A program made the position numbers and the translations under genes. From Mediterraneibacter catenae (GTDB taxonomy: Bacteria > Bacillota > Clostridia > Lachnospirales > Lachnospiraceae), in assembly GCF_008691045.1 (NCBI RefSeq), contig NZ_VMSO01000001.1:1-64000 (forward strand): a stretch of 64,000 bases of DNA, written 5' to 3'. A model generated the notes under the pieces. It was not told where the DNA came from and made no database searches. It saw only the letters and a program-made list of their open reading frames with translations. Below are positions 36,238 to 41,721 of this stretch, in pieces (position 1 is the stretch's first letter; each line of letters opens with the position of its first letter).

Positions 36238-36266
36238 ATTCTATCATAATGATATCCCCCTGTCAA
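36238..36266 (-). promoter_or_regulatory. Promoter of the amino-acid ABC operon
   Basis: TTGACA, a 17-nt spacer and TAGAAT on the minus strand, about 85 nt before the start codon. The -35 sits inside the hairpin of the upstream operon's terminator. Confidence 0.8.
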
Positions 36267-36287
36267 ATGTTACTTTGTCAGGGGGAT
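36254..36287 (-). terminator. Terminator of the DUF5717-DUF5716-TPR operon
   Basis: A perfect 9-bp stem ATCCCCCTG / CAGGGGGAT, about 10 nt after the TPR gene's stop codon. The U-tract is poor (ATCATTATG). Confidence 0.6.
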
Positions 36288-36296
36288 AATGTCTGC

Positions 36297-37064
36297 TTAT
36301 GAATGATTTCTTCTATGCTGCCGTTTCCACTTCTCGATGAGCTCCGGATCCGTCTCTTCCGGCATATTCTTCCGTATCTCATCAATCTCGCGGCGCATCT
36401 GCGCGTTAATCTCCATGTACTCATCCTGCTTTGTAATGAGTATATGATATTCTTCGAGCGACATATATTTATACGATGCGTAAAGATACGGCTTGATCAG
36501 GGCTTTGTCCTGGCATATCTGATATGCTCTGTCATACATACGGGCCGACTCCTGATAAAGGAAAAGGCGCCCATATGCAGCCCCCAGACCGGCATATATC
36601 CTTCCATAAAACTTATCGTCCACAGTCTCGTCTTTTTCCTGGTTGAGGATTGCCTGATAGACAAGAATTGCCTCCTCGACCTCCCCGCTCTCCAACAGGT
36701 TATCGCCTTTGTATTTCTGCCGCTCAATATCTTTTTGATTCTTCAGATGCTCAAGCACATTCTGAATCCGGATCATCTCCGGCTCGCGGTAAATTCTCGA
36801 CGCTTTCAGGATAGTCAGTACAAATTTTTCTACTGATCCGTGCAGACGGAGCACATCTTTCAAATCCGATGCAAGCCTCTCCATACCAAGTTCTTCTTCA
36901 AGCCAGTTACACAGCTGCTGATTCATAATTGTATAATCGATCAGATAAAGATTATTACACAGATAGTAACAGAGCTCTTCGATCGTAAATATACGGCAGT
37001 GTATCCTTGTAATTTCATAAGGATGTACAGCATGTCTGTCATGACAAAGAATTAAATTTCCCAT
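36297..37064 (-). CDS. TPR-type protein of the DUF5716/DUF5717 operon
   Basis: This 255-residue, mostly helical cytosolic protein is of unknown function. The N-terminal helical domain (residues about 15-90, containing TIEELCYYLCNNLYLID) looks like a protein-interaction module. Residues about 110-190 fit at least two TPR-like helix pairs (GEVEEAILVYQAILNQ, AYGRLFLYQESARMYDRAY). The tail is highly charged. Of two adjacent ATGs the second (37064) is better spaced from AGGAGG. The gene overlaps the end of the Hsp70-like gene by 26 nt, so it is translationally coupled. As third cistron it is probably an adaptor of the Hsp70-like protein. Confidence 0.75.
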   Translation of the reverse strand: MGNLILCHDRHAVHPYEITRIHCRIFTIEELCYYLCNNLYLIDYTIMNQQLCNWLEEELGMERLASDLKDVLRLHGSVEKFVLTILKASRIYREPEMIRIQNVLEHLKNQKDIERQKYKGDNLLESGEVEEAILVYQAILNQEKDETVDDKFYGRIYAGLGAAYGRLFLYQESARMYDRAYQICQDKALIKPYLYASYKYMSLEEYHILITKQDEYMEINAQMRREIDEIRKNMPEETDPELIEKWKRQHRRNHS

Positions 37065-38322
37065 CATTGCCTCCTAAATGTATCGTCTTCTCAGCATGAA
37101 AATCCGTTGCCGGGAAGAAATCGCCGAATCCTGCATCCCTCACACTGATCCTGCACGTCTTATTATCCAGAAAAGTTGTCTCAAGCTGCAGGCGCACAGA
37201 ATATTCCGGCCGTTTCGGGAGCTGAGCAAGAGAAATTGATTCTGTCCTTACATTTCCCTGGATCAGCGATTCAATATGAAATTCAATCTCCTCCATATCC
37301 TCGCAGAGCACTTCCCACTGATTGTTGGATTCGTACCAGTGCGCTCCCCAGGATACGATCGGATACCACATTTCCTGACCATCCACTCTCATATTTACCG
37401 TAATCTGATCCGTCAGTTTATCCTCCGAGAGATAAACAGGATTCTCAATATGCATGAAAAGCTTACGATACGCAGTATAACATGCACCCTTACTGTACAG
37501 ATTGTTTCCGATAAACGCACGCCGCCCGTTACACAGAACACGCAGGGCTTTCGGATACCAGTTATTCTCAAATCCTTCTCCCGTCAGAAAGACAGAAGAT
37601 ACAATTCGCTTGTCAAACACGCTCTCAATAAATTTACAGAACATGGCATCCGCCTCTTTAGCCTTATCTTCGTTAAGAACCGGATAGACCATTGCCAGCT
37701 CTTTCATATGCGCGCTGGCCACTTCGTCGACAGTGACAAATGTAGTCTTGCCCCCGCCAAGTCCGGGCTTCAGCCTGCGGAGCATATAAGCTCTGATCTC
37801 ATTACGGTCGCAGCAGAACAAAGCAGCATCATACTGCCACAGTTCCTTTGGCTGATAAAACAGATAGTTGCAGAAACTCTCTTTATAATCCTGTATAAAA
37901 ATGTGCCTCTTGTCAATATTCATGCGGACGGCGATCTCCCGCAGCATCTGTGCCAGTTCTTCCGACAGCGACGGCACCGTGAAGACAATGCCCTCTATCA
38001 CCGGAAACGGCTGCAGTGACATCTGAATAAACTGTGAGAGCAGCCAGGACGCATCGTACGTCTCCTCGCCGAACTCTATTTTGTCGCCGGCAAGACTTTT
38101 ACTCAGAAGCCGTGTGACTGTAAATCCTTCTTTAATACTGACAAGACGCTTTGCCTCTTTGCCGTATGCCCATGTATCTCTGAGTTTTCCTATGATCAGG
38201 GGAATCTGGTAATTATCGGAATCCACTTCCAGTGTATCCGGCTCCATATCCTCATCATTATAAAAACTGATCTGACATGTCTTTTCATTTATCTCATATC
38301 CTATGATACTGCCTTGTCCCAT
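37039..38322 (-). CDS. DUF5716 protein with Hsp70/actin-like fold
   Basis: This 427-residue cytosolic protein follows the strand-loop order of DnaK/actin-fold ATPases. There is an N-terminal phosphate-1 strand IIGYEINEKTCQISFY (residues 6-21), then an IPLIIGK...YGKEAKRL segment as in DnaK, an FTVPSLSEELAQMLREIA block (114-131) with IFIQDYKESFCNYLFY (141-156) in place of the DnaK EPTAAALAYG strand, and an adenosine-like motif SVFLTGEGFE (243-252) with GNNLYSKGA. The aspartate and the glycine/threonines of the usual DLGTT loop are replaced (YEINEKT), so ATP hydrolysis is uncertain. I recall this family as DUF5716. The ATG at 38322 follows AAGGAGG, which overlaps the preceding gene's stop. An upstream TTG reads through the ribosome site and is rejected. 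Confidence 0.75.
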   Translation of the reverse strand: MGQGSIIGYEINEKTCQISFYNDEDMEPDTLEVDSDNYQIPLIIGKLRDTWAYGKEAKRLVSIKEGFTVTRLLSKSLAGDKIEFGEETYDASWLLSQFIQMSLQPFPVIEGIVFTVPSLSEELAQMLREIAVRMNIDKRHIFIQDYKESFCNYLFYQPKELWQYDAALFCCDRNEIRAYMLRRLKPGLGGGKTTFVTVDEVASAHMKELAMVYPVLNEDKAKEADAMFCKFIESVFDKRIVSSVFLTGEGFENNWYPKALRVLCNGRRAFIGNNLYSKGACYTAYRKLFMHIENPVYLSEDKLTDQITVNMRVDGQEMWYPIVSWGAHWYESNNQWEVLCEDMEEIEFHIESLIQGNVRTESISLAQLPKRPEYSVRLQLETTFLDNKTCRISVRDAGFGDFFPATDFHAEKTIHLGGNDGKFNSLS

Positions 38323-38338
38323 ACAAAAGACAACCTCC

Positions 38339-41300
38339 TTACTCCTGTGCAAACATATGGGCAGCTACTGCATCTTCCAGCGCATATGCCATCATCTTCC
38401 GCTTTCTTTCCTTCTCGTTTTTTTCCATCAGAATATCATTCAGGCGTCCGTATCTGCCCTGTTCGCCGGGCCTGCTCTCACGTGAACATGTCTCCTTGTC
38501 GCTGCGGTAAGAGTTCCCGTCTATTGTTTCTTTGAAGTAATATTTCAATTTTTCATTTGAAAAAAGCACAAACTTTTTCACATAAAGATTCTCATACATA
38601 GGAGTCAGCACTTCTGTTGAATAGTCAGCCTGCTCTTTCCCGGCTTTCTGGAGCTGGTAATAAAGCATGACCCTGCTGCCCTTCTGTCCTTTATATTCAA
38701 TCAGCGTCTTATCCCACAGCTGAAGCTCGATCAGCCAGTCCTTCTCGTAGGAAAGGAAGAACGGGAAATATATCTGTTTTCCACAGAGTTCCTGCAGAAA
38801 TTTCTTTAACGTCTTTCTTGTCTGTGTATTATATTCCCTCCGGGAATAGTACTTCAGCACGGCTATCTTACATATATCACTCGTCTCTTCACCTTTTTCG
38901 TACTCGCGGCAGATAATATCTATCACGCTCCTGCCGATCTTGCGTTCCTCCACAACGTATTCTCTTGAAACATATGTGAGATACGCTTGCTGGAGCCTGA
39001 AGTAAGCCCCCTCCGCATAATATTGTTCAAAAATAGGAGCTTCCTGAAAAAGTTCTTCTGAAAATAGCATCTGAGTAAGTATTCTTTCCGCCAGTTTATG
39101 AGTAGGTATCTCATAATCTCTCGCTTCACGCCAAAGCAGCTTCATGTCAGGAGTAGCACCGCAGTAATAATCTGCAAGATAGGTCAGTATTACCTTATCA
39201 AACTGCTGCTTTTTAAACAGCTCAAAGCAGACATAAGTAAGAAAATCATCATTCTCATAATTATTCTCACGAATCGTCCTGCTGCACAGACTGAAAATCT
39301 CTTCTTCCGCGTAATTTTCAAGTCCGTTTTCGTGCACGATCTCCAGTGTCAGTTCCTGTTTCTGCAGCTCCTCACGGTTCCTTCGGAGTCCGTTGAGATA
39401 TTTCCTGCACATATCCATATACCGGAGTTCATAGAAAAGCCTCTTGCTTTCGTAAGGGATAGAATCCGTATAATGCCTGCCGTCTTTTGACTCCCATACA
39501 AGCCTGTCCGTCTTAGAGTAGAGGAACACTCTGGCACCTTTTTCTGTATATGGTGCTTTCTGCGTGATCGTTCCGTCATCGGCAATAACATGGACGTATT
39601 TCATGTTCCGGACTTTCGTGGTGATCCAGTATGCATGACATACATCGTACAGTGCTTTCACACGTTCGGAATTCATGGACGATTCTAGCACAAACCTTTT
39701 ATATATGATCCTGAGCTGTTCATTTATGTTGCGACGGTCTAACTGATTCCAGGCAAAAGCCTCCATTTCATCACGATAGTGTGCGTATATCTCGCTGGAC
39801 TCATCCTCGTATGTAATAAGATTGGAATAAAGGAAAGCACACTTGTGATAATCCAGATTATTCCCGTGCATAAAATACAGATATACGGATCTGGGCAGCG
39901 GTTTATGGAACTGTTCCGGCCGCACGGTCGCCATATAATACTCGTAGAGCTGTGCAATCTTAAGCTCATTCTCCACTGCTTTTTCATACCATTTGAAATA
40001 GCAGCTCTCTACACAGTTTCCCTTGATCAGAAGCGTACAGATCGCCGTCAGGATCATAGACTCGTTGTACATCTCGTATGCCTGGACAAGGACATCATAC
40101 AAATGCCGGTCAAAGACTTTCATTTGACTGGCAAGATTTGCAGTATACAGAGCAAGCTCCCTCGTCATAAGCTTATATTTGACCGCGAAAAGGAGCACCT
40201 GTACTTCAAACATACCGAGCTTCTTCAGAGAAGAGCTCTTGTCCCTGAAACAGCGGAAAGCCTGGAGATAAAACCAGATGCTGTGGGACTTATCCTCATA
40301 AAACTGCTTTTCCAGCGCCCTCAGCCTCTCGCTATATATCTTATATTCTGAATCTACCTCCACCAGCATACACAGGATTTTCCAGCTGTCCGGATGCTTC
40401 ATAAAAGATCTTGAAAGCTCCTCAGCGACCTTGCGCTGTCCGATGGTATCATTTGACAGAAGTGTAGTCAGGTATAGATAATAAGAACTGAGTTCCACAT
40501 CCTTTCCAATCGCAAAACGGTTATAATTATATGACTCCAGAATCCACTTTGCCTCATCCGTCTTTCCTCCGATCAGACAGATATGAGCATGAGCAAGAAG
40601 ATAATGCTCATTGCTGTCATCTTTTTCACGAAGATGGCTTATCCTGCGTACCGCTTCATCAACCCAGTCAGCAAGCTGCATCTTCCCTGCTTCATATTTC
40701 AGATAGCTTTTTATGATTCCGGCAAACTCCCGGTCATTCGCTCTCCTGTCTTCATCTCTGACAATATCCTTCTCAACTACAACCTCATAGATCAGAGTCT
40801 CATACGGCGACTCCAGAATGATCCTTCCGAAATTACTTCCTTTGTGAAGTTTCTCAGTATCAAGGAAATACTCAAGACGATATGAATTTCCTATAAACTC
40901 TTCCGTAGTAATACGTGTATGCTCCACATAAAGAAAGTCGCCTTCCGTCTTGACGTCGATCTCAAGGTATCCCCATGTATTCTTCTTGATCGCAAATGTC
41001 TCTTTACGCGGTTCCGTCAAAGAAATAAATGCTCTGCTTTCTTCTTCCAGCGTCAGGAATATCTTTTCCTTCTGCTTGCACCCTACAAGAAATTCTTCCA
41101 GTGCCTGCTGGTCCAGCTCCCAGCGTCGCATATTATCATAAAGGGCCTGTATTCTTTTATCTTCATATTTCAGGATCTCATAGAAATCTCTTGAACGGAA
41201 CAGTTTGACCGCTTCAGCGGCGTCCTGGAATGTAAGCTTTTTAAAATCATCCAGACTCTGGACCTTGCCGTAACTTGTCATGACGTACGGCTTCTCTATG

Positions 41301-41632
41301 ATCGCCGTAAACGCAATGTCGAATTCTCCTCCGTTGCAGACGATCGTAAACTTGCCGTGTTCCACGTGCCCGGGCACCAGACCTGTCCCGTCATATGTAT
41401 AATAGATATTGACCGGATTGGAATCAAATCCCTGCTCATCGCAGTGGACACGATAAGAAGAGGGATATACGAGTCCCCGGATCGTACCTTCCCCCTGATT
41501 CTGGAGCGAGAAACTCCCTCTGAATTTTTCTCCCTCTCCAACCCGCATTATAATACGTGTTTCCGGGAAGATGATCTCCGGCTGCGGGATATGAAAATCT
41601 CCTTTGGCAAATCGTTTGATCTTATTCTTCAA
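38339..41632 (-). CDS. Giant DUF5717 protein (beta-sandwich plus helical solenoid)
   Basis: This 1097-residue cytosolic protein has no signal peptide or membrane segment. Residues about 14-115 form an Ig/ASH-like beta sandwich (EIIFPETRIIMRVGEGE, then GSFSLQNQGEG). A second beta sandwich lies at about 210-290. From about 300 to the end it is a long alpha-helical solenoid resembling TPR/HAT arrays, rich in Tyr, Leu, Arg and Glu. I recall the family as DUF5717. Start is TTG with AGGTGA upstream. It heads a three-gene operon with the Hsp70-like DUF5716 and a TPR protein. A scaffold or client-binding partner of the Hsp70-like protein is the best guess; no function is established. Confidence 0.75.
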   Translation of the reverse strand: MKNKIKRFAKGDFHIPQPEIIFPETRIIMRVGEGEKFRGSFSLQNQGEGTIRGLVYPSSYRVHCDEQGFDSNPVNIYYTYDGTGLVPGHVEHGKFTIVCNGGEFDIAFTAIIEKPYVMTSYGKVQSLDDFKKLTFQDAAEAVKLFRSRDFYEILKYEDKRIQALYDNMRRWELDQQALEEFLVGCKQKEKIFLTLEEESRAFISLTEPRKETFAIKKNTWGYLEIDVKTEGDFLYVEHTRITTEEFIGNSYRLEYFLDTEKLHKGSNFGRIILESPYETLIYEVVVEKDIVRDEDRRANDREFAGIIKSYLKYEAGKMQLADWVDEAVRRISHLREKDDSNEHYLLAHAHICLIGGKTDEAKWILESYNYNRFAIGKDVELSSYYLYLTTLLSNDTIGQRKVAEELSRSFMKHPDSWKILCMLVEVDSEYKIYSERLRALEKQFYEDKSHSIWFYLQAFRCFRDKSSSLKKLGMFEVQVLLFAVKYKLMTRELALYTANLASQMKVFDRHLYDVLVQAYEMYNESMILTAICTLLIKGNCVESCYFKWYEKAVENELKIAQLYEYYMATVRPEQFHKPLPRSVYLYFMHGNNLDYHKCAFLYSNLITYEDESSEIYAHYRDEMEAFAWNQLDRRNINEQLRIIYKRFVLESSMNSERVKALYDVCHAYWITTKVRNMKYVHVIADDGTITQKAPYTEKGARVFLYSKTDRLVWESKDGRHYTDSIPYESKRLFYELRYMDMCRKYLNGLRRNREELQKQELTLEIVHENGLENYAEEEIFSLCSRTIRENNYENDDFLTYVCFELFKKQQFDKVILTYLADYYCGATPDMKLLWREARDYEIPTHKLAERILTQMLFSEELFQEAPIFEQYYAEGAYFRLQQAYLTYVSREYVVEERKIGRSVIDIICREYEKGEETSDICKIAVLKYYSRREYNTQTRKTLKKFLQELCGKQIYFPFFLSYEKDWLIELQLWDKTLIEYKGQKGSRVMLYYQLQKAGKEQADYSTEVLTPMYENLYVKKFVLFSNEKLKYYFKETIDGNSYRSDKETCSRESRPGEQGRYGRLNDILMEKNEKERKRKMMAYALEDAVAAHMFAQE

Positions 41633-41662
41633 AATCAGTCACCTACTCACAATTCTTCTTCT

Positions 41663-41674
41663 GCCCAAAGGGCA
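41663..41674. other. Small palindrome in the DUF5717 leader
   Basis: TGCCC-TT-GGGCA type inverted repeat (with a TTT centre on the minus strand) between promoter and start codon. It could be an operator or a small mRNA hairpin; position is the only support. Confidence 0.35.
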
Positions 41675-41691
41675 AAAATACGCTACTATGA

Positions 41692-41721
41692 ATTATAGCA
41701 TTGTTGTATAGTAACATGCAA
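41692..41721 (-). promoter_or_regulatory. Promoter of the DUF5717-DUF5716-TPR operon
   Basis: TTGCAT, an 18-nt spacer and a perfect TATAAT on the minus strand, about 60 nt before the TTG start codon. Confidence 0.7.

Follow-up and report, generated by a model that had tools for sequence, protein, structure and literature searches.

What does an operon do when its two largest proteins belong to families that are names without a function? The question is raised by a 64-kb stretch of the Mediterraneibacter catenae genome (contig NZ_VMSO01000001.1, positions 1 to 64,000; hereafter the window), in which genes for a DUF5717 protein, a DUF5716 protein and a tetratricopeptide repeat (TPR)-like protein lie head to tail on the minus strand and span 36297-41632. 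These genes are as follows.

38339..41632, minus strand: gene 1, DUF5717 protein, TTG start, 1097 amino acids (aa)
37039..38322, minus strand: gene 2, DUF5716 protein, degenerate Hsp70, ATG start, 427 aa
36297..37067, minus strand: gene 3, TPR-like partner, 256 aa

The gap between genes 1 and 2 is 16 nucleotides (nt), and genes 2 and 3 share 26 coding nt (29 including the stop); the mechanical open reading frame (ORF) of gene 2 begins further upstream, at a TTG. A first-pass annotation had listed these three genes with the lengths of the first two, the gap and the overlap, all of which are present, and its reading of them as a single operon is supported. In Pfam, gene 1 matched PF18984 and PF18983 (715.6 and 342.3 bits against a curated cut-off of 25) and gene 2 matched PF18980 (346.3 bits, cut-off 34.7), so that both are full members of their families; gene 3 had a sub-threshold TPR match only (TPR_12, 9.6e-4), and none of the three proteins contains a DnaJ domain. 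The operon had been called undescribed. This holds for function: among the matches listed in the open-access literature, a scope that leaves out most subscription papers and all preprints, neither a functional account of DUF5716 or DUF5717 nor a mention of DUF5716 as the dead Hsp70 of a larger Hsp70 operon was found; the one paper matched to the family names has a title on another subject. It does not hold for genes 1 and 2 themselves, which are named Pfam families. What is new here is the identity of DUF5716 as a degenerate Hsp70, an eight-gene operon in sister families, natural fusions of genes 2 and 3, the architecture of gene 1, and a membrane coiled-coil gene that accompanies the operon in relatives.

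DUF5716 is a degenerate Hsp70. The window protein had no match to PF00012 at E-values up to 1, and the distant homology was therefore traced through sister proteins. A search of PDB sequences returned only two weak matches, taken as chance, and viral contigs had no match to patterns derived from gene 2. We aligned a profile of 77 DUF5716 sequences (the window's and 76 from 80 named loci, leaving out three fused proteins and that of locus L122) to intact Hsp70s, with a probability of 99.25 and an E-value of 5e-20 over 388 columns, and to the pseudo-Hsp70 (B) of the sister operon described below, with an E-value of 4e-56; these E-values are pairwise and not calibrated against a database. The match to the two DnaKs of the window's genome alone was weaker (91.7, 7.6e-7, 167 columns). 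The alignment divides gene 2 into two parts, with an approximate boundary.

37447..38322, minus strand: nucleotide-binding-domain-like part of gene 2, catalytic residues lost
37075..37446, minus strand: substrate-binding-beta-like part of gene 2, no helical lid after it

The fold was seen on a relative, the fused gene 2-gene 3 protein of locus L083, which is 27% identical to the window's gene 2. The best Foldseek match of its model was DnaK (7kru_A, E-value 6.2e-17). In VIA, residues 7-422 of the model matched residues 2-504 of DnaK in the stimulating state (7kru_B) with Z 21.9 over 385 residues and a root-mean-square deviation of 6.2. Hsp110 and Ssz1 structures were near the top: 3c7n_A (the Hsp110:Hsc70 complex) at Z 21.3, 2qxl_B (Sse1) at 21.0, and 5mb9_B and 4gni_B (both Ssz1) at 20.9 and 20.6. 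The 50 matches listed for each fold search were, by name, Hsp70-family chains or complexes containing one, bar one ciliary central-pair chain in each (7sqc_Z0 and 7n6g_6K, whose titles name no subunit). Gene 2 thus folds as an Hsp70, with a nucleotide-binding domain and a beta substrate domain, as the first-pass annotation had proposed in part; its suggestion of a cytoskeletal scaffold fares badly, since nearly all the fold matches listed carry Hsp70-family names. The comparison with MreB, FtsA and ParM covers the listed matches, and families outside the lists may match as well. Hsp70 and actin have a common fold, which is what speaks for an actin-like, polymer-forming protein; this family has an Hsp70-type beta substrate domain, its profile matches Hsp70s, and its phosphate-loop residues are lost, which makes such a polymer most improbable.

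The residues that an Hsp70 needs for catalysis are nearly all missing. Among the 77 DUF5716 sequences, K70 is kept in 0, E171 in 0, T199 in 6, D201 in 1 and the GGG loop in 0, and the window's gene 2 keeps 0 of 12 catalytic positions. The sister pseudo-Hsp70 B (n=18) is similar: 0, 1, 0, 0 and 0 for the same five features. Because the ATPase residues are lost, gene 2 is not a working Hsp70, and from its sequence it is expected to be inactive as an ATPase. The earlier idea of an alternative chaperone consequently keeps its Hsp70 ancestry and loses the working Hsp70. D8, an aspartate in the first phosphate loop, is retained in 72/77 sequences, so some relatives may still bind a nucleotide. The profile aligns with DnaK up to residue 471 and the protein stops about 10 residues past the beta domain; neither the alignment nor the relative's fold model contains a helical lid. 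The beta domain is no better conserved than the rest of the protein (2.24 bits, against 2.14-2.74 elsewhere), and conservation therefore does not mark it as the functional part. Residues 272-280 appear invariant, partly through the fetch pattern, which was placed there, and no argument is drawn from them.

The nearness of Sse1 and of the Hsp110:Hsc70 complex in the fold searches brings in a second reading, in which gene 2 is an Hsp110-like exchange or regulatory partner of DnaK that stands in for a lost GrpE-like protein; a GrpE-fused protein is indeed among the neighbours that the window's family would have lost. Whereas Hsp110 acts with ATP bound and possesses a lid, gene 2 is lidless and its ATP site is broken, and we regard this role as improbable.

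A quick tree of 89 rows, 20 of them sampled from DUF5716, was used to place the family among Hsp70s. The 20 rows form one group (support 99), which is joined by five pseudo-Hsp70 rows (97); B of locus L061 is nearest (94), and the other 13 B rows fall outside. The window's DUF5716 groups with the pseudo-Hsp70 of the sister operon. Loci L043, L058, L068 and L069 hold very divergent DUF5716 members on long branches.

The sister operon came to light among 20 regions around matches at the level of the order: two (L068 and L069) are in the window's family, and 18, drawn from 56 matching genomes outside it, are in other families. Genes in these loci were counted by BLAST clustering and position; the full set was scanned with Pfam in L062, and the GrpE-type protein also in L078. 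In L062 eight genes follow one another on one strand: a DUF5717_N piece (400 aa), a DUF5717 piece (896 aa), Hsp70 A (558 aa), a 622-aa protein with a C-terminal GrpE domain (2.6e-11), B (528 aa), Hsp70 C (547 aa), Hsp70 D with a VWA domain (691 aa), and a TPR protein (387 aa). B matches both DUF5716_C (2e-19) and HSP70/PF00012 (5.4e-11). The VWA fusion of D was verified by Pfam in L062 only. Among the 18 loci, A is present in 17, the GrpE-type protein in 18, B in 18, C in 17 and D in 16 (15 at full length), a TPR protein of plausible size in 14, and the DUF5717 pieces in 17; in genome G551 these pieces are on another contig. Loci L061, L070 and L077 are interrupted or lack parts. All 14 checked residues are conserved in A (17/17 sequences), C (17/17) and D (15/15, with the truncated D of L061 excluded). 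The eight-gene operon is seen in L059, L060, L062, L063, L065, L067, L073, L074, L076 and L078.

Like the DnaK-DnaJ-GrpE system, the sister operon combines Hsp70 and GrpE domains; it differs in having three intact Hsp70s and a dead one and in that a J protein was not found, and the operon of the window's family retains no intact Hsp70. The main text of a paper on DnaK duplication (PMC11019930) has no words beginning with "Lachno" or "Clostridi". Similar parts occur in the GAP1-N2 GTPase systems: in the portion of the source available, HSP70 and GrpE share a neighbourhood with TPR or beta-rich proteins, and some of these systems add a second Hsp70 that has no peptide domain (PMC7159879). The sister operon differs from these in its four Hsp70 paralogues, its VWA fusion and its constant gene order across families, and no TRAFAC GTPase was seen in either set of eight genes scanned, the window's neighbours and the L062 operon. 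This comparable parts list (GTPase-HSP70-GrpE-TPR neighbourhoods; Kaur et al. 2020) is what speaks for an Hsp70-based system of defence or conflict. Against it, the genes are near-universal, mostly single copy and order-restricted in our samples; GTPase, nuclease and effector genes are absent among the same eight neighbours and eight operon genes, though two sister operons have a Uma2-type endonuclease-like gene (PF05685) inside or close by (L059:5643-6221 and L065:11507-12094); and PADLOC had no match for the window's three proteins, the fourth gene described below, the GrpE-fused protein or the DUF5717_N piece. A defence role is thus very unlikely. PADLOC did match two sister Hsp70s to PDC-M61B (4.8e-4 and 6.6e-4), weak matches taken as the shared Hsp70 fold.

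In seven loci of the window's family and three sister loci, the operon is followed by a gene that we take, by its sequence, to be valS. This adjacency points to inheritance in place. It might also be held to favour a complex linked to translation or RNA, in which the dead Hsp70 would attach to RNA, to nascent chains or to the ribosome itself, with Ssz1 or CnuD as the model. Ssz1 of the yeast ribosome-associated complex is described, in the text available of PMC10939069, as an Hsp70 homologue that does not hydrolyse ATP and works in a fixed complex; with its close fold match, it is by analogy the closest working parallel to gene 2, which differs in being bacterial and in its partners, where a TPR protein and a very large scaffold take the place of the J protein. 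CnuD of the CoCoNuT systems is, in the part of PMC11090510 consulted, a degenerate Hsp70 (nucleotide-binding and substrate-binding domains) beside helical, HEAT-like repeats and is proposed to bind RNA; gene 2 shares the degenerate Hsp70 near helical repeats, whereas no McrB-like GTPase or McrC occurs among the eight window neighbours scanned and the window operon is near-universal in its family. A translation- or RNA-linked role is unlikely to be right: neither an RNA-binding domain nor a J protein was seen, valS adjacency is synteny alone, and rank among Hsp70 folds is uninformative, adjacent rows being tied.

Gene 3 is related to the TPR protein of the sister operon (hhalign probability 99.9, E-value 1.1e-33, 195 columns). 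Eight natural fusions of genes 2 and 3 were found (L039-L043, L083, L084 and L125). In a quick tree of 103 rows, 102 of them labelled and 8 fused, the fusions occupy three positions, and well-supported branches force three changes, so the fusion arose repeatedly or was repeatedly lost. Since they are fused at three tree positions, genes 2 and 3 probably touch. The AlphaFold2 model of the L083 fusion had a mean predicted local distance difference test (pLDDT) score of 89.8 and a predicted template modelling (pTM) score of 0.77. It was made from 48 rows (15/55 gene-2, 30/53 gene-3 and 3/3 fused), picked by script for correct register from a mixed alignment of 111 fused, gene-2 and gene-3 rows that was itself misaligned. 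By our own rough estimate, two unrelated rigid halves would score a pTM nearer 0.6, and the value therefore hints at a defined packing. The first-pass annotation had placed all three proteins in one complex. The contact between genes 2 and 3 is made probable by the fusions; a physical three-way complex may be proposed.

Gene 1 was modelled with AlphaFold2 from the window protein and a 56-row alignment (pLDDT 86.3). In this model it has beta-sandwiches at residues 26-113 and 193-288, both of the PapD/MSP/ASH type; the fold search places them as follows.

41285..41584, minus strand: first PapD/MSP/ASH-like sandwich of gene 1, residues 17-116
40760..41065, minus strand: second PapD/MSP/ASH-like sandwich of gene 1, residues 190-291

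The first matches FimC (7b0x_C; 92 residues, 1.8 Å, Z 11.8) and also MSP and HYDIN domains. The second matches a domain of a GH115 enzyme (4zmh_B, Z 11.6), OCRL (3qis_A, Z 10.7) and a HYDIN PapD-like domain (2e6j, Z 10.6); CEP192 is also among the PapD/MSP/ASH-type matches. Beyond the sandwiches are a helical solenoid (294-665), a small beta domain (667-731), a second solenoid stretch (736-969), a beta domain (976-1050) and then C-terminal helices; the fold-match list hardly covers the protein past residue 291. The model bears out the architecture of two beta-sandwiches and a helical solenoid given in the first-pass annotation and adds the beta domains at 667-731 and 976-1050. Short peptide motifs are common ligands of MSP and ASH domains, and VAPB-FFAT and OCRL-F&H entries are in the fold-match list. 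In 13/18 sister-family loci gene 1 is two separate ORFs of about 400 and 900 aa.

How far the operon reaches was surveyed in 150 Lachnospiraceae genomes, one per genus and including the window's. The three genes are near-universal together: DUF5717 was found in 147/150, DUF5716 in 145/150 and gene 3 in 143/150, and gene 3 also occurs in G370 (L054), which the search scored as a miss. None of 14 control genomes has DUF5716 or DUF5717. All three genes are missing from G327 and G389 only (93% and 98% complete); G396 (99% complete) has a partial gene 1 alone, at a contig edge, G426 and G444 (68-69% complete) have gene 1 alone, and G318 (67%) has gene 2 alone. A scan of named records by DUF5716 alignment confirmed at least 588 places, of which 80 were kept. 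These are mostly from Lachnospiraceae genera, "Lachnospiraceae bacterium" or unplaced Clostridia or bacteria, with the exception of two Eubacterium sp. and one Anaerolineaceae, perhaps a mislabelled metagenome-assembled genome. Gene 1 is followed by gene 2 in 78/80 of these loci, with a median spacing of about 20 nt. Across the phylum DUF5716 was found in 4/299 genomes and across the class DUF5717 in 9/245, all in the window's family; DUF5717 was found in 5/299 phylum genomes, one of them by a sub-threshold match. That match lies outside the family and at 18.7 bits is below the cut-off, and it was taken as chance. Among 146 genomes sampled from the order, 71 have DUF5716-like and 75 DUF5717-like genes and 70 have both, an overlap counted by hand from the two genome lists; G452, G491, G512, G571 and G581 have DUF5717 only and G563 DUF5716 only. 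Within this sampling the system is restricted to the order, where roughly every second genome sampled lacks it.

In many relatives a fourth gene follows gene 3 directly (67/78 named loci, e.g., L044:12479-13702). It encodes about 395 aa, with a coiled coil recognized by eye and a hydrophobic double segment (two segments in 58/68 sequences), and three members scanned with Pfam had no match above the curated cut-off. By profile it is found in 65/150 family genomes, one of these being a weak partial match, and in L061, L064 and L074, all of them sister loci, it adjoins the TPR gene; the profile had no match in the window's genome. That genome contains two DnaK-type Hsp70s and two weak matches (frames of about 365 aa), and thus no operon-type Hsp70 was found in it. 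The second DnaK-type gene is at G000:C1:205231-206967 (L080), and it is a possible partner of the pseudo-Hsp70. In an 80-genome sample of the family many genomes carry other Hsp70s elsewhere, in frames of about 560-610 aa; a 690-aa Hsp70 was not among the matches listed for this sample.

With somewhat better than even confidence, we conclude that the three gene products form a cytosolic complex around a dead Hsp70, and that this complex acts as a client-specific, ATP-independent adaptor or holdase and is the remnant of an eight-gene machine. Gene 2 retains the nucleotide-binding domain as a scaffold together with the beta substrate part, lacks the lid and would no longer hydrolyse ATP. Gene 3 would bind it directly, and gene 1 would serve as the large scaffold and offer peptide-binding surfaces on its solenoid and its two PapD/MSP/ASH-type domains. 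The beta domain, together with the ASH-like domains, would capture a client, which would then be held or passed on to ordinary DnaK, much as the non-hydrolysing Ssz1 assists Ssb in yeast; the two DnaK-type proteins of the window's genome would be available for such a hand-over. The fourth, membrane-hairpin coiled-coil protein would tether the complex to the membrane in many relatives. We infer the direction of change: the fuller machine would be the older one, and the family would have shed its three intact Hsp70s and its GrpE-like exchange factor, leaving the present operon.

Several observations weigh against this reading. The residue-loss calls rest on a profile alignment at 12% identity, and 26/77 sequences have a lysine no more than two columns away from that of K70, and 9/77 a glutamate equally close to E171. 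The pseudo-Hsp70 rows do not form one clade, in a quick tree with long branches. One of the three fusion positions (L043) hangs on a long branch of a quick tree, and a pTM of 0.77 for a two-domain protein, with three fused rows only, is suggestive and no proof of an interface. The pTM of gene 1 is 0.49, a weak guide to its overall shape. The scanned ORFs of the sister operons contained no J-domain protein, an unexpected lack in a machine of Hsp70s. The genes are not always adjacent: G382 has gene 3 and G337 has gene 1 on a separate contig, away from a contig edge in both cases, and in G307, G349 and G353 the contigs of genes 1 and 2 differ (contig edges uninspected).

The remaining features of the window were read from the sequence.

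38323..38341, minus strand: TAA stop of gene 1 followed immediately by GGAGG, the Shine-Dalgarno sequence of gene 2, within the 16-nt gap
41692..41721, minus strand: possible promoter, TTGCAT, 18 nt and TATAAT, with TG ahead of the -10; unproven
36254..36287, no strand assigned: inverted repeat ATCCCCCTGTCAAA...TTTGTCAGGGGGAT with one mismatch, directly past gene 3 and before the ABC transporter genes

The TATAAT promoter proposed in the first-pass annotation has a good -10 with TG (41692-41697) and a poor -35 (TTGCAT, 41716-41721). The promoter scan did not list this candidate, and the region is no richer in promoter-like sites than shuffled sequence (12, against 11.0 +/- 3.0). The inverted repeat is possibly the operon end, a terminator or an operator; it is missing from the terminators listed by the window scan, and a promoter-like site on the minus strand (11 of 12) begins within it, at 36266. 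Rfam (at gathering scores) and tRNA scans of the whole window gave no matches. A GNAT gene lies upstream of the operon; downstream are an amino-acid-type ABC transporter and then purF-like and purB-like genes. Eight neighbours matched models for adenylosuccinate lyase, glutamine amidotransferase, three ABC-transporter parts, GNAT, phosphoglycerate mutase and homoserine dehydrogenase. That no neighbouring gene explains the operon, as had been claimed, is right for the window. It is wrong for relatives, which have the membrane coiled-coil gene, and for sister families; the claim is limited to the window because the operons of those families hold three intact Hsp70s and a GrpE-like protein.

The dead-Hsp70 identity and the fuller eight-gene relative give a testable mechanism to genes that nearly all members of a dominant gut family carry. 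We tentatively suggest, at somewhat less than even confidence, that the order invented a multi-Hsp70 machine, with three live Hsp70s, a dead one, a GrpE-fused coil, a VWA arm and a scaffold of TPR and ASH-solenoid proteins, and that its largest family dropped every ATPase and kept the dead Hsp70 and the scaffold as a chaperone or adaptor that needs no ATP, defines the family and is nearly indispensable. If true, this would be a natural case of a chaperone machine that lost its motor and kept its frame, while the fuller form persists in sister families.

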